In this document: piece by piece, positions 17,327-26,732 of the stretch | Position numbering within the stretch: the first letter of the stretch is position 1 | How the letters are laid out: every line of letters starts with the position of its first letter | Source of the DNA: a virus | DNA length: 39,357 bases | Virus record (IMG/VR): IMGVR_UViG_3300046167_000350 | Span: 1 to 39,357 of that record | Strand: one strand, 5' to 3' | Notes under the pieces: generated by a model | Seen by the model: only the letters and a program-made list of their open reading frames with translations | Databases searched by the model: none | What the model was told of the DNA's origin: nothing | Position numbers and translations under genes: made by a program

Positions 17327-18183
17327 GCGATCACCTCATCATATGCTCTCTGCGCCAATGTATCTGTCGATGTGTTTCTCAGAATGTAGTACTTATTCAT
17401 GATTCGACTTGCTTGTTTAATGTCTGTCGAGACGAGGAGTTGACTGTTTGCACCATTGAATCGATTGCGTAACTCAAATAAAACGAACTGAAGTTGTATT
17501 GAGTACAATGAATAGTTCGAGTTAGGTGAGTATGTGGACGCAAACCTAAGTAGATCGCTGAAACGACTACCGATTGCGGTACTGTTTTTCCACTTAGCAA
17601 TACCAAACGCTTGGGTCTGACCATACGTCTGAAACCCACTTGCACCTTGTAATGCGCCTGTGATTGCGGCGGCATGCATGGGTGAGTAACCGTTGTCAAT
17701 AAAGAACTTCATGCTCTGTTGTCTTCGCAGTCCAAGTGTCGCTTGCTGATCTTCATCATCTTTCAGAGGTGGTGCGACAACGTTCTGGAGTCTTGACTGG
17801 TTATAGTCGAATGAGTTGGTCACATCCGATCGTCGATCAGACTGTATTGCACTGGGTAATTCTGTACGTGGTAATGAACCTAGAATCATGGGTAACTGTG
17901 ATGCAGTCCCATCAAGGAAGATACCAAACACGAACGCACCCTGAGTTAACTGAGGCACACGACCCAGACCTGAGATGCCACCTTCTGTTGTGGGTATCAT
18001 TACTTGCGCCCACGGTAGATCGCGTTCTGGTATTTCTTCTGCACTTGGGTTGTGTACACCGTAGATACGCACCTTGACTCGTCCCTCTAGACCTGCAGGA
18101 GGATGTGAGTTCAGTACAGTACCAAAGAACCAGCGATGGTCGTCACCGTAGAAGTCTTCTTGTATTGGTCTTAAAGGTCTCAT
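17323..18183 (-). CDS. gp5 OB-fold hub protein fused to a lysozyme-like domain with altered catalytic site
   Basis: Residues ~15-110 match the gp5/VgrG OB-fold: HRWFFGTVLNSHPPAGLEGR, VKVRIYGVH, and WAQVMIPTTEGGISGLG. Residues ~155-286 resemble the phage tail lysozyme family (Phage_lysozyme2): FFIDNGYSPMHAAAITGALQ, GIAKWKN, then helices containing QLQFVLFELRNRF. In that family the helix normally reads like LxxESxF, with Glu as the catalytic acid. Here the codon is GCA and the residue is Ala181 (LQGASGF), so the domain may be inactive and purely structural. The start overlaps the hub gene by 4 bases (ATGA) and the stop overlaps the amidase gene by 4. Together with the next two genes it appears to reconstitute a split gp5. 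Confidence 0.8.
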   Translation of the reverse strand: MRPLRPIQEDFYGDDHRWFFGTVLNSHPPAGLEGRVKVRIYGVHNPSAEEIPERDLPWAQVMIPTTEGGISGLGRVPQLTQGAFVFGIFLDGTASQLPMILGSLPRTELPSAIQSDRRSDVTNSFDYNQSRLQNVVAPPLKDDEDQQATLGLRRQQSMKFFIDNGYSPMHAAAITGALQGASGFQTYGQTQAFGIAKWKNSTAIGSRFSDLLRFASTYSPNSNYSLYSIQLQFVLFELRNRFNGANSQLLVSTDIKQASRIMNKYYILRNTSTDTLAQRAYDEVIA

Positions 18184-19544
18184 ACGATAAAGTCTGTAGG
18201 TAGTTCACCGAGTTTTGTTAGACGTAACACCGAGAAGTGTTCGTCACCCGAGAGTTTATGGTTGATCTGTGTGATAAGATAATCTCCAGACTTACGTTTA
18301 TCGATCTGGTCTGCCGCGTCTTTGCTTTCTTGCTCTACGTTTGGATCGAGGAAGAGAATACGGAACTTACGACCCACGCCTATTTTCTTCTCAAAGAACA
18401 ACGCACCATTCATACCGATGTCAATGACATTCTTCTTCATGAGATGGCGAGTGATCTTGTTCTTTGCTTTGAGTCGAGAGTCTACAATGTTATTGTTCGC
18501 ATCGACCAATTGTGTTTCGTCGTGATAACTCTTATATTGATTGTATGTGCCTGTCGATACGATCTGATGGATGTGCGTTGAGTTGTATTCGTCGCTTAGT
18601 TTGCCATCGATTTCAAGTGATGGGTCGAACACGCTCTGTGTGGTGTTCTTGTTCAGTATCTCATTAGAGTAGAACTCATCGAGTGTATTACGTATCGATA
18701 GATGCGTTACCTGGTAGTTACCATTGTTTGCGTCGAGTGATGCGTACTCTGACCCGATTGCACCAACTTCATACATCAATAATGCATTGTCAGAACCAAT
18801 CTCTCGTACACTCAACACTTCGAAATAAGATCGGAGTGTTTCCTGTGTGTCATCAATACCACCAATCGCACTGCTGTATCGTGCGGGCAGTTTAGAGTTG
18901 ATTACCTCTTCTTTGAGCATACTGTCCAGATCACTTAACAGAACTGCATTGGTGTAAAGTGAACCATAGAGATACAAGGGCGAACCTGTACGTGTCGTTG
19001 CTCGTGTAATGATCCACTGTACTGCTTCGAGTGGACTCATATACGGTATGATGATCTTGCGTTCTTCTTGTACTGATGGTTCGTAGAATACTGGAGAGAC
19101 TGTCTTGCCTGTTTGATTCGACAGAATGTCTGTAGCAATGTCTTCTAGTTTACCTGTGTATGACTTACTAAATGATTTGATAGCATTTATATACACATGC
19201 TCTTCGACCAGATTGATCTGGAGTATCTCGCTTCGTTCGCCTTGCTTCTTGCTGTCCACAATCTCTTGGAAGAAGAAGATCTTCTCGATCACAGGTGTGT
19301 CAAGATCTACACCCGATGCAATAACGAATCGAATACGTTCAGTGCCTGTACTGCCTATAGACGTACGTAAACCAAAGTCATCCAGAACTGCCATACGCCC
19401 ATCGACATATGGTTTCAGAATGTTTTCAAAGAACTGTAATTCCAGAATGTTCTCGCTAATCTCAATGACCGTATCTTCTGCGCTAGGCGATGATAGAATC
19501 AATGATGCTTCGAGTATACGAAACTGTGAGTTAATACCTGCCAT
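18180..19544 (-). CDS. Baseplate hub protein, gp27/gpD-like
   Basis: A 454-residue protein immediately upstream of the OB-fold protein, the same order as gp27-gp5 fused in VgrG. The fold signature is consistent with a hub: an N-terminal beta domain (FRILEASLILSS, LQFFENILKPYVDGRMAVLD), a middle domain (GKLEDIATDILSNQTGK; IPYMSPLEAVQWIITRAT) and the C-terminal SGDYLITQINHKLSGDEHFS segment typical of gpD-like hubs. T4 gp27 is 391 residues. It would form the trimer that joins tail tube and spike. The identity rests on motif resemblance and position. Confidence 0.75.
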   Translation of the reverse strand: MAGINSQFRILEASLILSSPSAEDTVIEISENILELQFFENILKPYVDGRMAVLDDFGLRTSIGSTGTERIRFVIASGVDLDTPVIEKIFFFQEIVDSKKQGERSEILQINLVEEHVYINAIKSFSKSYTGKLEDIATDILSNQTGKTVSPVFYEPSVQEERKIIIPYMSPLEAVQWIITRATTRTGSPLYLYGSLYTNAVLLSDLDSMLKEEVINSKLPARYSSAIGGIDDTQETLRSYFEVLSVREIGSDNALLMYEVGAIGSEYASLDANNGNYQVTHLSIRNTLDEFYSNEILNKNTTQSVFDPSLEIDGKLSDEYNSTHIHQIVSTGTYNQYKSYHDETQLVDANNNIVDSRLKAKNKITRHLMKKNVIDIGMNGALFFEKKIGVGRKFRILFLDPNVEQESKDAADQIDKRKSGDYLITQINHKLSGDEHFSVLRLTKLGELPTDFIV

Positions 19545-19545
19545 A

Positions 19546-20277
19546 CTACTTTATCTGACTCTTATAAGATCCAACGATCTCGCTGATACTTTGCTTCTTG
19601 ATGACACGAATACGCTTTGACAATTCGTTCTCGTTTATCAACCATTCAAGATTCGTGACAGGTACTTTCGTGACAGTTGGTGTGAAGTAGTAGTCTTGCC
19701 ATTCGTCACTATCGTTTACGTAGTGGTGCGTCCCATCGTACTGATACACTGTGTTGGTCAAACTAACCAGATTAGTACCATTCGCATATGCTAGTGATAC
19801 AGCACCTGTCAGATCACTATCAACATTCGATACTGTGATCTCACCTAGATCTAGATTCTTTGATACGACAGTGCCTGTCTTTGTGCCGACTAGTACTGCT
19901 TGACCCTCGGGATACTTATCACTCCATTCAGCGGCAGAGTCAGCAGTCGAGATGTTTAGTTTACATGTATAGTGTGGAAAGAAATCATTAACGCCTGCAT
20001 CGTAGACTTGCTTGAGTGACTTGGGCCAACCTGTCTCTCGCAGTCGCTCATTCATAAGGAAGAATGTCCAACCATAGTCGGGTGTTCCATACAATCTTGA
20101 CGATAACGTGTCGGGTCTCTCATAGTCGCGAATCTCATACTCGATGTATGCGCCTATGTCATCTCGTGCGACATCTATTAGATCAGAATATCTGTTTAAC
20201 TGCTGAAACAGTACGGGCGACTTCTCATCTCCAAAGAGATATAATACTTTGGGAAAGTCTTTGAAAAAGTTTGACAT
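19546..20277 (-). CDS. gp53: Baseplate wedge subunit gp53
   Basis: A 243-residue protein with the gp53 (LysM-like wedge) pattern: FFKDFPKVLYLFG, LNRYSDLIDVARDD, YEIRDYERPDTLSSRLYGTP and YGWTFFLMN. T4 gp53 is 196 residues and clamps gp6, gp7 and gp25 in the wedge core. The ATG overlaps the gp48 stop by one base (TAATG) and the stop is one base before the hub gene start, so it is translated as part of a coupled chain. An insert of roughly 70 residues between about 110 and 200 is beta-rich. Confidence 0.8.
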   Translation of the reverse strand: MSNFFKDFPKVLYLFGDEKSPVLFQQLNRYSDLIDVARDDIGAYIEYEIRDYERPDTLSSRLYGTPDYGWTFFLMNERLRETGWPKSLKQVYDAGVNDFFPHYTCKLNISTADSAAEWSDKYPEGQAVLVGTKTGTVVSKNLDLGEITVSNVDSDLTGAVSLAYANGTNLVSLTNTVYQYDGTHHYVNDSDEWQDYYFTPTVTKVPVTNLEWLINENELSKRIRVIKKQSISEIVGSYKSQIK

Positions 20278-21440
20278 TAGTATCCCTGCCTAATTTTGTC
20301 TTTATGTAGTGCCGTAATCTCAGAGAACGCCAGCGACACATCAACCTCAATGAATGAACCATCACGATACATGCCAGATGCGGTCGAGTTAAATGATGTG
20401 TTAACATCTTTCAGATAACAACGTTGGATCTTAAACGCAGGGTTGTCATCGTTCTTGTTGAGTATGTCGATCTCGAATACGTTAGGGAATCGATATGCTA
20501 CTGGAACATTACCTGCAAGTATCTGCTCTGGATACAATTCTTGTCGAAAGAACTTAACGATGTTCTTGATCTCTAATGCTTCTGCCTCGCTGTTCGCAAT
20601 CATCTTGAACGTGAATGCAAACGAGCGAAGGTTAACTTGATTGAACAGTGTACGCTGATTCGGTTGTGATGCGATACGTGTCGCACTCTTGATACCACCT
20701 ACGAGTCCTTCGTCAAGACCACCTAATAGTGACGCACCGACAAGACCGCCTGCCGCACCGCCTGCAAGAAAACCGACACCACCCGACACTATCTCAGCAC
20801 TACTACCTGCAATCTTTTGTGCGGCAAGTGAAGTTGCCGCTTGTCCAAGACCTTCACTAGACGTAATGCCCTCGAATGGACTGCCACCGCCTACGAATGC
20901 CTCTGCCGCTCCGCCGATAGCACCTAGATTTGCTTCTTGATATTGTGCAACGTCAGAGAATCGCAGATCTCTTGGTAAAGGCAATGTGACACGACCCACT
21001 TCTGTTCCACTGCCACCGTTCTCGTATGATGTGAACCGAGAGTCGGCACCAGTTGTCGTTGCGAGTTCTTCTTTTTCTGCTGTAGATGTCGTTGCATCTG
21101 CCGCCGCCGCAGTTTTATCTTCGCCGTTTACTTTCTCAATAACTGTACCATCACTTAGTACAGCACTGAATGTTGGCGTGGAAGTTGCAAGAAACTTTTT
21201 GAAAGTATCACCGACAGCATTCCCTATTGACTCGCCTATGTTTGTACCCTCTACTTCGATTGCACGAAAACGAATCCTGTTAGGAAAACTACCGCTCATT
21301 GTCAGAGGGTATCGAAATCGTCGTGCTTGCTCTTGCACTTCAGTAGAAGGATCAGTCGCTTCTGCATTTTCTTCCTTCGTCGCAGTCTTCTGTGCGAGGA
21401 CAATCTCGCCTTGTGCTTCGTTTACGTCTGCCTGTGACAT
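20277..21440 (-). CDS. gp48: Tail tube cap / baseplate protein gp48
   Basis: A 387-residue protein, against 364 in T4 gp48. The C-terminal half has the tube-cap features NQVNLRSFAFTFKMIANSEA, EIKNIVKFFRQELYPEQ and YRFPNVFEIDIL, consistent with the gp48/gp54 family. The N-terminus has an Ala/Glu-rich leader followed by FRYPLTMSGSFPNRIRF. Between residues ~170 and 260 is a Gly/Ala-rich segment with GGVGFLAGGAAGGLVGASLL. In T4 gp48 sits at the end of the tape measure on the hub. It is the first gene of the leftward late operon, 35 bases after a TATAAATA element. Confidence 0.75.
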   Translation of the reverse strand: MSQADVNEAQGEIVLAQKTATKEENAEATDPSTEVQEQARRFRYPLTMSGSFPNRIRFRAIEVEGTNIGESIGNAVGDTFKKFLATSTPTFSAVLSDGTVIEKVNGEDKTAAAADATTSTAEKEELATTTGADSRFTSYENGGSGTEVGRVTLPLPRDLRFSDVAQYQEANLGAIGGAAEAFVGGGSPFEGITSSEGLGQAATSLAAQKIAGSSAEIVSGGVGFLAGGAAGGLVGASLLGGLDEGLVGGIKSATRIASQPNQRTLFNQVNLRSFAFTFKMIANSEAEALEIKNIVKFFRQELYPEQILAGNVPVAYRFPNVFEIDILNKNDDNPAFKIQRCYLKDVNTSFNSTASGMYRDGSFIEVDVSLAFSEITALHKDKIRQGY

Positions 21441-21490: not shown

Positions 21491-21979
21491 ATGGCATATT
21501 CAGGCAGATACCGAATCAAAAATCCCAAGAAGTACAAGGGCGATGCCTCGACTATCGTGTACAGATCACACTGGGAAAAGTACTGTATGATATACTTCGA
21601 CGATAGCAGTGATGTCAAGTCTTGGCAGAGCGAGGAGACTGTCATACCCTACTTATATGAGGTCGATAGAAGGTATCACCGATATTTTATGGACTTTGCT
21701 GTCACATGGAAAGATGGTACTACAACATTAATCGAAGTCAAACCCAAGAAAGAAACAACACCACCCACAGGCAATAAACGAACCAAGCGTTACATCAACG
21801 AAGGATTGACGTACGTGAAGAACATGAATAAGTGGGAAGCGGCACAAGACTATGCAAAGGATCGTGGTTGGAAGTTTGAGATCTGGACAGAGGACACACT
21901 GTACGCAATGAAGATCATGAAGAAACCACTCAAAAAACTCAAACCATTGAAACCATATTCAAGGAAAAAGACTAAATAG
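21491..21979 (+). CDS. gp4: Head completion nuclease-like protein gp4
   Basis: A 162-residue protein matching the T4 gp4 (gp50) family, which has a TnsA-like PD-(D/E)XK fold. Motifs are GRYRIKNPKKYKGDASTIVY, RSHWEK near residue 26, a central IPYLYEVDRRYHRYFMDF and LIEVKPKKE, where the D and E-x-K of the nuclease core fall. T4 gp4 is about 150 residues and completes filled heads before tail joining. The C-terminus is very basic. There is no strong ribosome site before the ATG, unlike its neighbours. First gene of the plus-strand operon. Confidence 0.88.
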   Translation: MAYSGRYRIKNPKKYKGDASTIVYRSHWEKYCMIYFDDSSDVKSWQSEETVIPYLYEVDRRYHRYFMDFAVTWKDGTTTLIEVKPKKETTPPTGNKRTKRYINEGLTYVKNMNKWEAAQDYAKDRGWKFEIWTEDTLYAMKIMKKPLKKLKPLKPYSRKKTK

Positions 21980-21983
21980 AAGC

Positions 21984-22130
21984 ATGAATCATCTAAAAGA
22001 AATCAACGAAACGTACTTCGAACATCTATGCTTTGCATGGACTGTTGCGTTTATACTATTTGTTCACGGCGTGTTTCCTCAATTGTGGATCGATAAAGCA
22101 AGTGGTATGATGGAAGGTAGACATGAGTAA
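21984..22130 (+). CDS. 48-aa membrane micro-protein, DUF6356-like
   Basis: The frame encodes 48 residues beginning MNHLKEINETYFEHLCFAWT, then a hydrophobic segment (VAFILFVHGVFPQLW), then a short polar tail. The pattern HLxEINETYFEHLxFA followed by one membrane helix and HGVFP matches the DUF6356 group of small phage and bacterial membrane proteins. It starts 4 bases after the gp4 stop and overlaps the next ATG by 8 bases, so it is part of the operon. The function is unknown; a minor membrane role in lysis or assembly is possible. Confidence 0.7.
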   Translation: MNHLKEINETYFEHLCFAWTVAFILFVHGVFPQLWIDKASGMMEGRHE

Positions 22131-22713
22131 CATATTCCAGACGGTAGAACAAGAAGCATTTCGTGCTGGTATTACTCCACGTACAAAAGAATCTCGTGCA
22201 TGGTTTCGTAAGAAAGTACAGAACATGCGTAACCTTAATCGTCGCGCATTGATGAAAGAAGACCCTATCGAAAAGAGGGCATCGTCTGCCGCAGGTAGTA
22301 TGTACATGTTCTTTTATGATGCCAAGCATCGTAAGACGTTACCGTACTGGGATTCATTCCCCTTGATCGTTGCTGTTGGTCCAGCAGAGAAAGGTTTCTA
22401 TGGGATGAATCTGCATTATTTACCCATACCACTTCGTGCTAAGTTTCTTGATGCGTTGATGGATATCACTAACAATAAAAAGTACGATGAGACCACCAAG
22501 TTTCAAGTGTCGTATGACATGATGAAGTCAGCGGCAAAGATGAAGTATTTTAAGGCGTGCTATAAGCATTACTTGACTAGTCAGGTCGAGGGTAAGTTAG
22601 CATACGTCCCGCCTCAAGAGTGGGAAATCGCAACGTTCTTACCCACTGCTCAATGGCAGAACAGCAGTCGCAGTGCAGTATACAAAGATTCGAGGATGAA
22701 GATCAATGCTTAA
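22123..22713 (+). CDS. Probable DNA end protector (gp2-like)
   Basis: A 196-residue protein with a highly characteristic central block: MYMFFYDAKHRKTLPYWDSF, then PLIVAVG, then GFYGMNLHYLPIPLRAKFLD. This block recurs in T4-like marine phages next to gp4, where the protein is annotated as the DNA end protector (gp2), matching the T4 gene order 3-2-4-53. I recognise the block but not its mechanism. The alternative is a tail completion protein (gp3). The N-terminus is helical and basic. A good ribosome site (GGAAGG) precedes the ATG, and the gene overlaps both neighbours by 8 bases. Confidence 0.6.
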   Translation: MSNIFQTVEQEAFRAGITPRTKESRAWFRKKVQNMRNLNRRALMKEDPIEKRASSAAGSMYMFFYDAKHRKTLPYWDSFPLIVAVGPAEKGFYGMNLHYLPIPLRAKFLDALMDITNNKKYDETTKFQVSYDMMKSAAKMKYFKACYKHYLTSQVEGKLAYVPPQEWEIATFLPTAQWQNSSRSAVYKDSRMKINA

Positions 22714-23383
22714 ACAAGGCACAGTCGATGAGATGAAGTCTCTCATATCAAACAAGGGAGGTCTTGCTCGTACGAATCTATACTTCGTACAGTTCCCCAA
22801 TCTTGTTAAGGGCGTTGACCCGTACGATGTGGGTTTACTTTGTTCGCAAGTCAGTGTACCCAATTATAATCTATTGACTGTACAACGTGACATAGGTGTG
22901 TCTCGTAACAACGTAGTCTATGGTTATGGCAACCCCAATGTCTCGATGACATTCCGCGTGTTGAATGATCATGGTGTGCGCGAATACTTTAAGAAATGGC
23001 AAGACAAAGCACTTGTCAAGACAGATGACATCGAAGGGCGATACGAAAACAACTATCCCGATGAGTATGTGAGACCTGTTATCATAACACAATTGAAACC
23101 AGGTGTAAGTTATCCCGCACTAGATCTTAAGTTAGGTCCATTCGATCTAGATCTAGACATCGGCACCAAGTTCGAAACGACTTATAGGTGGAAACTAAAT
23201 AGGGCATATCCGGTAGGTGTTACTAACGAGACACTTAGCGATGCAAGTACTAACGAGGTCAGTGCAATCACGGTTGATCTCGCATATGAAAACTTCACGA
23301 CCGAAACACCAACCTCGGGAACTGATGGTATTTTGAAACGACTTGGCGCAGGAGTACTAGGAAGTATTGCGGCAAGACTATAA
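22706..23383 (+). CDS. Tail-tube-fold protein, gp54/gp19-like
   Basis: A 225-residue protein with the tube-fold pattern LARTNLYFVQFPNLVKG, LCSQVSVPNYNLLT and NVSMTFRVLNDHGVREYFKK. These resemble the beta-sheet core shared by gp19, gp48 and gp54. Given the gp48-like protein nearby and the gp26/tape-measure genes downstream, it is most likely the baseplate-tube initiator (gp54) rather than the major tube protein. The size is between gp19 (163) and gp54 (320), so the exact assignment is uncertain. Ribosome site GAGGATGAAG precedes the ATG. Confidence 0.6.
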   Translation: MLKQGTVDEMKSLISNKGGLARTNLYFVQFPNLVKGVDPYDVGLLCSQVSVPNYNLLTVQRDIGVSRNNVVYGYGNPNVSMTFRVLNDHGVREYFKKWQDKALVKTDDIEGRYENNYPDEYVRPVIITQLKPGVSYPALDLKLGPFDLDLDIGTKFETTYRWKLNRAYPVGVTNETLSDASTNEVSAITVDLAYENFTTETPTSGTDGILKRLGAGVLGSIAARL

Positions 23384-23394
23384 GGAGCAAATGA

Positions 23395-24090
23395 ATGGCA
23401 TTGCCACTATTGAATGAAACCCCGTCTTATGATATTGTTATTCCTTCGACAGGTAAGAAAATAAAGTTTAGACCCTATCTGGTCAAAGAGGAGAAGATAC
23501 TTCTCGTTGCAAGTGAATCGAAAGATCCAGATCAGATGATGCAAGCAGTACAGGATACATTACGCGCCTGTACGAATGGTAAATTAAAAGTAGATACCCT
23601 GACCACGTTTGATCTTGAGTATCTATTCATCAAGATTCGATCGCGCAGTGTAGGCGAGACTGCATCACTTCAGGTGAAGTGTGTTGACTGTGGACATGAA
23701 AATCCATATGATGTCAATCTAGATGATATACAATGTGTAGTACCAAAGAAGGATAAGATTGTCGTATTGAACGATGCCGTATCCGTCGAGATGAAGTATC
23801 CGAGTTATAGCAAACTCTTGTCAATGGGCGAGGGTGATGAAGCGGTAGGGTTTAGTCTCATGGCAAGTTGTCTTGAGGCAGTCATCACAGAAGATGAGCG
23901 GGTAGATGTAGGGGATGAGACAGAGGAGAGTATACGAAGATTCCTCGACTCAATGACTCGTGATCAGTTCGCAAAGTTGTCTGCGTTTCTTATGGACATA
24001 CCTTCTGTGACGCACAAGGTAGAGTTTGATTGTGCTGGATGTGGTAAAGATAACGATTACGAGATAAGGGGTATCCAAGGTTTTTTTTAG
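23395..24090 (+). CDS. gp26: Baseplate hub assembly protein gp26 (T4 baseplate family)
   Basis: A 231-residue protein: PSYDIVIPSTGKKIKFRPYL, KEEKILLVASES, and the long segment to FDLEYLFIKIRSRSVGETAS are typical of gp26/T4_baseplate proteins. Two CxxC pairs, CVDCG (about residue 96) and CAGCG (about 218), suggest a zinc ribbon. T4 gp26 is 208 residues. The ATG follows AAGGAG at good spacing. The gene ends GGT TTT TTT TAG in a run of eight T, a slippery site. The -1 frame beyond it is open and protein-like, so a longer 293-residue product is likely (separate entries). Confidence 0.85.
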   Translation: MALPLLNETPSYDIVIPSTGKKIKFRPYLVKEEKILLVASESKDPDQMMQAVQDTLRACTNGKLKVDTLTTFDLEYLFIKIRSRSVGETASLQVKCVDCGHENPYDVNLDDIQCVVPKKDKIVVLNDAVSVEMKYPSYSKLLSMGEGDEAVGFSLMASCLEAVITEDERVDVGDETEESIRRFLDSMTRDQFAKLSAFLMDIPSVTHKVEFDCAGCGKDNDYEIRGIQGFF

Positions 24091-24150
24091 TATGCCTCTC
24101 ACATGACTCTTTAGCAAATCATTTTAAAACTAATTTTATGTTGATGAGGC
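24081..24150 (+). promoter_or_regulatory. Candidate programmed -1 frameshift signal (T8 slip and downstream stem)
   Basis: Eight T at 24081-24088 overlap the gp26 stop (TAG at 24088-24090). Slipping back one base gives TTA GTA TGC and an open frame. Six bases downstream a stem can form: GCCTC (24094-24098) with GAGGC (24146-24150), extended by CACAT (24100-24104) with ATGTTG (24138-24143, one bulge), enclosing a 33-base AT-rich loop. The pairing was worked out by eye. Confidence 0.65.
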
Positions 24151-24275
24151 ACCATAAATACACATTAACAGAACTTGAAATGATGATCCCTTGGGAACGT
24201 GAAGTACACATGATATTGCTATTACAGGCAATGGAAGAAGAAAAACAATTAAGAGAGAGTCATGGCAACGCTTGA
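24087..24275 (+). CDS. -1 frame extension of gp26 (tail assembly chaperone-like C-terminus)
   Basis: After a -1 slip the ribosome would add 62 residues: a linker with CLSHDSLANHFKTNF, then MLMRHHKYTLTELEMMIPWE, then a charged helix ending at the TGA at 24273. The HHKYTLTELExMIPWERE block is reminiscent of short frames conserved downstream of gp26 in marine T4-like phages. No ribosome site precedes the internal ATG at 24138, and the protein-like sequence begins before that ATG, which favours a frameshift fusion over an independent gene. It overlaps the tape-measure ATG by 14 bases. The arrangement parallels lambda G/G-T next to gene H, where the frameshift product is a tail assembly chaperone. 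Confidence 0.65.
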   Translation, partial: LVCLSHDSLANHFKTNFMLMRHHKYTLTELEMMIPWEREVHMILLLQAMEEEKQLRESHGNA

Positions 24276-25851
24276 CGACATAGTAGAAAGTAACATACTC
24301 AACGCCGAGATGCTTCAAGAGATCGGCGAGATGCAGAAAGTCCAGATTCAGATGGACTATGTGCGCGGGAAAGACTTTGCTGATATTGCGGCGACAATGC
24401 GAGCAGAGGCGAAAGCAAAACGTGAATCTGCCCGCGAGCAGTATGGTCCTCCTCTCCCACCCGATCATCCTATGAACCCTAATCGGGATCAATCTAAGAC
24501 TCCATTGCCTGCGTCTTCTACTGACGGACAAGGTGCAATGGGTGCACTCGGTGCGTCTGCCGCAAAAGCGGCAGGTATGGCACTCAGTCTAGGTGGATTA
24601 GGTTTCGGCATTGGTGCGTTCTTTACTGGACTCGCCGCTGGCGATAAGATGGCATCGTATCTTACGACCGATCTAGGTACTCTCAAAGCACAAGTCGGTA
24701 CACTCGACGAAATCATGACAGATCTATCAGGTCCTGGTATGGTTGCTATCGGTGGTGCAATTGCTGGTGGTGGAGCATTAGGCGCGTTGTTCGGACCTAA
24801 GGTTGCGGGTAAAGCGGCACTTGGTATGGGCGCAATTGGTTTTGGTATCGGTGCGTTCTTTACTGGTCTTGCCGCAGGTGATGCCGCAGGCGCATATCTT
24901 AAAGCAGATGGGCAAGCACTAGGCAATGTCATGGAAGGTGTTGCTCGTGGTCTAGGCGCATTTGCTGAAGCAGATCAAGGTGGTACACTTACTGCAATGC
25001 TTGCCGCTGGTGCGTTGTTTGGTCAAGCACCGGGTGCCGCCGCGAAAGGTGCTGTCGGTATGGGTATCATAGGTGCAGGTATCGGCGCGTTCTTTGTTGG
25101 ACTTGGCGGTGCATCTGCTCTCATTTCTAAGATGGGTGGTGCGGACGCATTAGGCAATCTAATGTCTGGTACTGCAAGTGGTCTTAAAGATCTTGGTGAA
25201 GTCGAGTATATGAATCTCTTAGGATTCTTACCTGCCGCCGTTGCAGTCGCCGCTGGTATTACTGCACTGACTGCCGCAGATGGTCTCAATAAACTTGGTA
25301 ATCTCTTTGGCGGTGACGATGAAGGCGATGCAATTCAAAAGATGGCAAAGAATCTCAATGCACTCAACGAGGTAGACTTTTCAGTCAGTGAAGGTCTGGG
25401 CGATATGAGTGTTGCTGTTGCTAAATTAGGACAAGGTGTGTCCTCGTTAGCAGATGCCGACATGGGCGACTTCAAAGATAACATGGTTGATCTAGCAAAG
25501 ACCATGGCGCATGTATTGCCCGTCTATGATAAGATGTGGAATGGCGGTAAGATTGGTGACGGTTACTTCGATGGGTATCCAGAAATGGACTTTGGTGCAG
25601 GTATGAAGTCTGCGCCTATTGGCGAGATTGGCAATGCATTGGGTAAGATGACTTCGTTCCCTATTGCAGAAGCAGTGTCGCAGAGTACGAACGCCGCAGT
25701 AGGTCAGTCACAAGCATCAATCAATATCGTTAATGATAATAGTGTGAATGCTCCGTCTCAGACGAATAATACTGCTGTTGCAGGAAATGGTGACGCTCGA
25801 ATGCCATCGCCCAATATGGACAACGGCACCCGAGCATCTGCTTACGCTTAG
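24262..25851 (+). CDS. Probable tail tape measure protein (529 aa, Gly-rich repeats)
   Basis: The N-terminus (~1-60) is a charged helix (VESNILNAEMLQEIGEMQKV; AEAKAKRESAREQ), followed by a Pro-rich linker. Residues ~95-340 hold hydrophobic Gly/Ala segments repeating about every 79 residues: GFGIGAFFTGLAAGD at 114 and 193, and GAGIGAFFVGLGG at 271. These could be membrane-inserting. The C-terminal third is polar with an Asn-rich end (INIVNDNSVNAPSQTNN). T4 gp29, the tape measure, is 590 residues. Position directly after gp26 and its frameshift frame is the classical tape-measure location. No gp29 motif is certain. Its stop overlaps the gp32 stop by 4 bases in convergent orientation. Confidence 0.6.
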   Translation: MATLDDIVESNILNAEMLQEIGEMQKVQIQMDYVRGKDFADIAATMRAEAKAKRESAREQYGPPLPPDHPMNPNRDQSKTPLPASSTDGQGAMGALGASAAKAAGMALSLGGLGFGIGAFFTGLAAGDKMASYLTTDLGTLKAQVGTLDEIMTDLSGPGMVAIGGAIAGGGALGALFGPKVAGKAALGMGAIGFGIGAFFTGLAAGDAAGAYLKADGQALGNVMEGVARGLGAFAEADQGGTLTAMLAAGALFGQAPGAAAKGAVGMGIIGAGIGAFFVGLGGASALISKMGGADALGNLMSGTASGLKDLGEVEYMNLLGFLPAAVAVAAGITALTAADGLNKLGNLFGGDDEGDAIQKMAKNLNALNEVDFSVSEGLGDMSVAVAKLGQGVSSLADADMGDFKDNMVDLAKTMAHVLPVYDKMWNGGKIGDGYFDGYPEMDFGAGMKSAPIGEIGNALGKMTSFPIAEAVSQSTNAAVGQSQASINIVNDNSVNAPSQTNNTAVAGNGDARMPSPNMDNGTRASAYA

Positions 25852-26732
25852 TCAGCGGCGAGTTTAGCAAAGTACGACATCGTATCTTCAGGTTCGTCAG
25901 CGGCAGTCTCTTGAATGACTGGTGCTGTCGCGACCTTAGGAGCAGGTGCCGCTTCTACTTTAAGATCTGGATAATCAGACGGGGTCGCCTGACCAAGTAC
26001 CAGATTTAACCTTGCTTGTAATTCAGCATAGGTCTTAAAGTTTGCAGGATCAGAGAACTCATTTAAATCATATAACTTATTATAGATTGCTTCGAGTTCA
26101 TCATCATCACCACCTGCTAGTGCAGTAGGTGCACCAAACTCAGACTTATCGTAGTTTCGATAACCTTCGACTTGACGAATCTTTAACTTGAAAGGCGCAC
26201 CTTCCCAGAAGTCAAATGGATTCATAGGCGACTCATCTGCAAACTCTGGTTGCATCTGATCCATGATCTTGTCATGAATCTTCTTACCGAAAGTGTATAA
26301 GAACACTTTACCTTCATTTGCTGGATTTGCAGGATCTGATTCGACCAAGATGTTCGCGACATAGTGCAATCGACGCTTTCGCTGTCGCACTGTATCTTTA
26401 TCAGCATCGTCACCAGAGTTCCATAACTTGCTGTTTGCCTCAGAGACAGGATCTTGTTGACCAATCGAAGTCAAAGACTTTTCGATGTACCATTGACCAG
26501 TTGGTCCCTTAAACCCATGATCCCAGAAACGCACCCAAGGTAAATCATTACCTTCAGCGGCAGGGAGAAAACGCAGTACCGCATAACCATTACCTGCCTT
26601 ATCGACAGTAGGTTTCCATTGACGTTCATCAACGTACGATTTCTTTTCAGTTTGTGGACCCGATTGGGCAGAGGCGGCAGATACTAGATCTGAGATGGAG
26701 TTACGGTTACGCTTTAGTTTATCAAACGACAT
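25848..26732 (-). CDS. gp32: Single-stranded DNA-binding protein gp32 lacking zinc cysteines
   Basis: A 294-residue protein (T4 gp32 is 301). The N-terminal LAST-like segment MSFDKLKRNR is basic, and the core contains VLRFLPAAEGNDLPWVRFWD, GQWYIEKSLTSIGQQDPVSE, VFLYTFGKKIHDKIMDQMQP and the acidic C-terminal tail ending SYFAKLAAD. In T4 the segment WYIENCSSTHG…DSCPVC binds zinc. Here it reads WYIEKSLTSIGQQDPVSE with no Cys, so the zinc site is absent. The role is coating ssDNA and organising replication and recombination proteins. A sigma-70-like promoter (TTGACT-N17-TATACT) and a ribosome site (AAGGA) precede it. Confidence 0.93.
   Translation of the reverse strand: MSFDKLKRNRNSISDLVSAASAQSGPQTEKKSYVDERQWKPTVDKAGNGYAVLRFLPAAEGNDLPWVRFWDHGFKGPTGQWYIEKSLTSIGQQDPVSEANSKLWNSGDDADKDTVRQRKRRLHYVANILVESDPANPANEGKVFLYTFGKKIHDKIMDQMQPEFADESPMNPFDFWEGAPFKLKIRQVEGYRNYDKSEFGAPTALAGGDDDELEAIYNKLYDLNEFSDPANFKTYAELQARLNLVLGQATPSDYPDLKVEAAPAPKVATAPVIQETAADEPEDTMSYFAKLAAD

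Follow-up and report, generated by a model that had tools for sequence, protein, structure and literature searches.

In phage lambda, one gene gives a short product, G, and a longer minor one, G-T, through a -1 ribosomal frameshift near its 3' end, at the slippery site G GGA AAG. A 2016 review counts this frameshift among the conserved features of long-tailed phages "except T4" (PMC5009743), and T4 gp26 and gp51 have been listed as hub assembly chaperones, of which gp51 is essential but does not occur in the particle (PMC3004832). According to the papers that cite it, the study of Vladimirov, Gautam and Davidson (2022; Virology 566:9-15) identified gp26 and gp51 as the tail chaperone genes of T4-like phages; PMC12846349 credits it with -1 frameshift signals of the poly-T type in the TAC-N genes (TAC, tail assembly chaperone) of this group, and in PMC10885494 it is the reference for phages that combine a short gene with a fused long one. 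Here, we analyze the gp26 locus of a marine T4-like phage, IMG/VR record IMGVR_UViG_3300046167_000350 (39,357 nucleotides, the whole of which we call the window), for which an earlier note had proposed a programmed -1 frameshift that fuses gp26 to a downstream extension and that would be new to T4-like phages. The frameshift has gained strong comparative support, but the claim of novelty has to be given up: because lambda G/G-T is a classic case and poly-T signals are credited to Vladimirov et al. in the works that cite them, the mechanism is not new as a kind, and frameshifted tail chaperones are apparently already known in T4-like phages as well. In the literature that we searched, we found no earlier report of this frameshift in cyanophages.

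We consider it very likely (probability about 0.92) that a lambda G/G-T-type -1 ribosomal frameshift yields two tail assembly chaperones at this locus, a short gp26 and a long gp26-gp51 fusion, as argued by a conserved slippery heptamer, a conserved -1 frame, purifying selection on that frame, and in-frame homologues in T4-type phages. The features concerned are as follows.

23395-24090, plus strand: gp26, short tail assembly chaperone (lambda gpG-like, TAC-N), 231 amino acids, matching PF12322 and phrog_150
24081-24087, plus strand: slippery heptamer T TTT TTT in the gp26 frame, the first 7 bases of a T8 run, recognized by sequence and conservation
24088-24090, plus strand: gp26 stop codon TAG, immediately 3' of the heptamer, recognized by sequence
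24087-24275, plus strand: -1 frame extension with its stop codon, the gp51 domain by its match to phrog_634 and the putative counterpart of lambda T

The gp26 protein matches Pfam PF12322 (E value of 1.5e-62; 211.6 bits, with a gathering cutoff of 24.5) and PHROG 150 (E value of 9.6e-64), and its gene ends, as the earlier note had read it, in GGT TTT TTT TAG within eight T (24081-24088). After a -1 shift, the window reads FF-LVCLSHDSLANHFKTNFMLMRHHKYTLTELEMMIPWERE... and runs on for 62 more residues to a stop at 24273-24275. In the proposed mechanism, the majority of ribosomes would stop at TAG and release gp26 (231 amino acids), and a minority would slip back one base, with P- and A-site tRNAs on the TTT TTT that follows a T, and continue into gp51 to give a predicted fusion of 293 amino acids. 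If the analogy with lambda G and G-T holds, gp26 would coat the tape measure protein, and the gp51 part of the fusion would recruit the tube subunit. As in lambda, one gene would thus supply a short product and a longer minor one, and the locus sits between the genes for the tail tube and a candidate tape measure; the slippery sites differ (G GGA AAG in lambda, T TTT TTN here), the likeness being one of arrangement and the slippage in the window a prediction. A second parallel is the TAC locus of phage Adele (Vandenendeviridae/Andersonviridae; PMC12846349), which likewise combines a conserved poly-T with a -1 frame of more than 200 bp but belongs to other phage families and has the motif GTTTTT in place of T TTT TTN.

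Our survey of IMG/VR loci, enlarged by more scans and by isolated phages, contains 341 loci with a readable gp26 end, and an in-frame T TTT TTN lies 0 to 8 codons ahead of the gp26 stop in 326 of them. Finer statistics were drawn from 176 nonredundant representatives, all picked from heptamer-bearing loci, so they show how the site is maintained, its generality being shown by the 326 of 341. Heptamer and stop are 0 or 1 codon apart in 160 representatives. Across all 176, the N of T TTT TTN is C in 111, T in 58, A in 6, and G in 1. Because the T run is only 6 long in 118 of the 176 (7 in 4 and 8 in 54), conservation concerns the heptamer T TTT TTN and not the run length; the T run that the earlier note proposed to follow through related genomes is therefore conserved as a heptamer but not as T8. 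The same counts bear on the possibility that transcriptional slippage at the T run creates a mixed mRNA population from which the fusion is translated. T8 in the window and in 54 representatives would suit such slippage, but 118 have only 6 T before C, A, or G, another 4 have 7, and it is the in-frame heptamer that is conserved; we regard this explanation as very improbable.

Selection on the heptamer is visible codon by codon. The residue before FF varies (S, D, A, N, or G; pN, the nonsynonymous variation, is 0.40), and the third base of its codon is invariantly T, with a synonymous variation (pS) of 0.000; the first Phe codon of FF is always TTT (pS of 0.000), and pS is about 0.6 at codons near the heptamer. 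The heptamer is maintained at the nucleotide level. Two variants of the site were also seen: Rhizobium phage P10VF (L173) has T TTT TTG, which occurs in only two survey loci, the other (L336) being the same phage, and in 16 loci, including L174 (Mosig), L259, L279, and L302, the heptamer stands 8 codons ahead of the gp26 stop, against 0 to 2 elsewhere.

On its profile matches, the -1 extension is gp51, which in many phages is annotated as a gene product of its own, the "baseplate hub assembly catalyst": it matches PHROG 634, which bears that name, at an E value of 9.3e-22, and the PHROG 150 profile is matched as well, at its C-terminal end. The earlier note was right that the extension is protein-like, but it is not a protein of a new kind. 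The first survey of IMG/VR yielded 77 distinct loci that have both parts, and every one of them places gp51 in the -1 frame with respect to gp26; in all 176 representatives the -1 frame is open for 58 to 71 codons past the heptamer, compared with a median of 8 codons for the +1 frame. Homopolymers are prone to sequencing error, which might have split one gene in two, and an open frame might arise by chance; but the same split and frame recur in all 77 loci and in phage isolates that were sequenced independently, and the extension finds its PHROG 634 match (E value of 9e-22) besides. The agreement of independent loci has already refuted this explanation, and the match together with its recurrence is far above chance.

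Purifying selection acts on the -1 frame from the slip site onward. Between the slip site and codon 19, pN/pS is 0.30 in the -1 frame, compared with 0.98 and 1.70 for the gp26 and +1 frames; over codons 20 to 45, it is 0.18 in the -1 frame, and across the extension, the two other frames range from 0.87 to 3.7. Selection on the downstream codons, by which the earlier note had wished its proposal to be judged, is thus found, and in the -1 frame only. It includes the part upstream of the first -1-frame ATG of the window (24138-24140): codons 2 to 19 precede this ATG, so that selection at the protein level acts there even though a start at the ATG would exclude them.

Fifteen loci lack the heptamer, of which 13 are T4-type, including RB69 and T2 (for one of them, L346, the end examined is that of the gp51-type gene, its best match, instead of that of gp26), and 2 belong to the Ackermannviridae. 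In RB69 and T2, genes 26 and 51 are on opposite strands, and a gp51-like -1 open reading frame (ORF) was looked for after gp26 and not found. The gp51 of T4-type phages is encoded by a separate gene, is about 250 amino acids long, and has a PF12322 domain of its own in addition to the PHROG 634 end; the profile of the predicted fusions matches T4-type gp26 as far as FF and T4-type gp51 across the junction. By these alignments, T4-type gp51 is a longer paralogue that runs colinear with the predicted fusion. In the simplest reading of the sequences, then, T4-type phages would encode the short and the long form in two paralogous genes, without a slippery heptamer, and the other phages would make both from one gene by frameshifting.

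The two Ackermannviridae loci (L167, Vibrio phage VAP7, and L170, Dickeya phage LIMEstone1) have the -1 ORF without the heptamer and with a TAATG stop-start overlap, from which gp51 may be made by translational coupling. They lend something to the idea that gp51 is in general a separate small protein translated from an internal start, perhaps coupled to the gp26 stop, with the T run merely encoding a conserved FF; so do the separate gp51 annotations in GenBank records, such as those of P-SSM2 (57 amino acids) and S-SM1, and an early -1-frame ATG (codon index 4 to 8) in 41 of the 176 representatives. The window itself argues otherwise, its first -1-frame ATG lying about 50 nucleotides (nt) beyond the gp26 stop with no sequence resembling a ribosome-binding site ahead of it, in agreement with the earlier note; in most representatives the first ATG is at codon 16 or later, past the conserved LSH..L.N..KTNF, and purifying selection starts at the slip site. 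Nor does conservation of FF account for the invariant TTT and wobble T, since T4-type gp26 mostly retains FF as GA[AG] TTC TTT at the heptamer site, with TTC first. We therefore consider a general internal start very improbable and prefer the programmed frameshift.

An AlphaFold2 model of gp26 (mean predicted local distance difference test score of 91.9) bears on the function of the short product. Foldseek gave no match to the PDB at an E value of 0.001 or below and matched gp26-type proteins among viral models. With a second structural aligner, residues 1 to 96 resemble 3fgx (Z score of 8.0; 86 residues aligned; root mean square deviation [rmsd] of 4.2) and 2ob9, the HK97 tail assembly chaperone gp13 (Z score of 7.3; 85 aligned; rmsd of 3.9), ahead of a next-best match with a Z score of 5.1, although values of 7 to 8 may reflect a common arrangement. 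The former structure (Rbstp2171) is a phage tail assembly chaperone according to PMC9603447. Judged by the model, the N terminus of gp26 has the tail-assembly-chaperone fold common to HK97 gp13 and its relatives. The protein (23395-24087) also has two CxxC pairs, CVDC and CAGC (residues ~96 to 99 and ~214 to 217), with the look of a zinc ribbon, and a weak match to PF01096 (E value of 0.05).

The stem that had been said to form downstream of the T run is present in the window, 5 nt past the heptamer.

24093-24098, plus strand: 5' arm of the candidate stimulatory stem, TGCCTC, recognized by pairing and clade alignment
24146-24151, plus strand: 3' arm of the candidate stem, GAGGCA, the six basal pairs mostly kept in the clade

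The minimum free energy of the first 78 nt is -14.6 kcal/mol. Among 38 sequences of the clade, 77.6% of cells retain the structure, compared with 33 to 46% for slid versions, and in 24 cells both sides have changed; compensatory changes affect the six basal pairs in five sequences, a modest covariation. The stem is a possible clade-specific stimulator of frameshifting. More tentatively, and at somewhat less than even odds, the clade of the window may have added its own stem to tune the ratio of short to long chaperone, with related cyanophages frameshifting at the same heptamer without a stem and T4-type phages using two paralogues instead.

The genes on either side of the locus are the following.

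22706-23383, plus strand: tail tube-like gene adjoining gp26 on its upstream side (phrog_45; E value of 6.8e-23)
24262-25851, plus strand: Gly/Ala-rich ORF of 529 amino acids whose first bases overlap the last of the gp51 frame; its position makes it a candidate tape measure

Further T4-like neighbors were recognized by profile matches at 18180-21440, 21491-22713, and 25848-26732, and the neighborhood includes genes for a tail protein, a gp53-like protein, a tail tube cap, and a gp32-like single-strand binding protein on the minus strand and genes for head closure and a DNA end protector on the plus strand. The earlier note had placed the fusion directly upstream of the tape measure. The position fits, but the 529-amino-acid ORF matched no tape-measure or other family in Pfam or PHROG and gave no alignment with the T4-type gp29 of T2; we rejected it as a proven tape measure and retain it, by position alone, as a candidate. 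The gene after gp51 in S-SM1 (L175:3400-5703), unlike this ORF, has a profile match, to an endolysin PHROG (phrog_790; E value of 1e-160).

Besides the reservation attached to the fold scores, several points weigh against the frameshift reading or parts of it. The statistics of the 176 representatives are conditioned on the presence of the heptamer, although the 15 loci without it are restricted to two lineages. The two Ackermannviridae are among those that lack it. The purine-rich stretch 5' of the heptamer shows no synonymous constraint, for which reason a Shine-Dalgarno-like AAGGGG about 10 nt 5' of the heptamer was dropped as a stimulator. RNAalifold gives just 3 consensus pairs on the clade alignment, so the case for the stem is weak, and its pairing was looked for in wider relatives and is missing there. 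The identity of the tape measure is unproven, and frameshifting is a prediction here: the slippage itself, its rate, and the division of labor between the products are what we infer from the observed sequence, conservation, selection, and homology.

In the genomes of cyanophages and other marine T4-like phages, the separately annotated "baseplate hub subunit" and "baseplate hub assembly catalyst" most likely represent the short and the long product of a single tail assembly chaperone gene. The exception made for T4 in 2016 (PMC5009743) can accordingly be refined, in that many T4-like phages outside the T4 subgroup carry the predicted frameshift. Together, the two groups would offer a natural comparison between frameshifting and gene duplication as means of setting a protein ratio.
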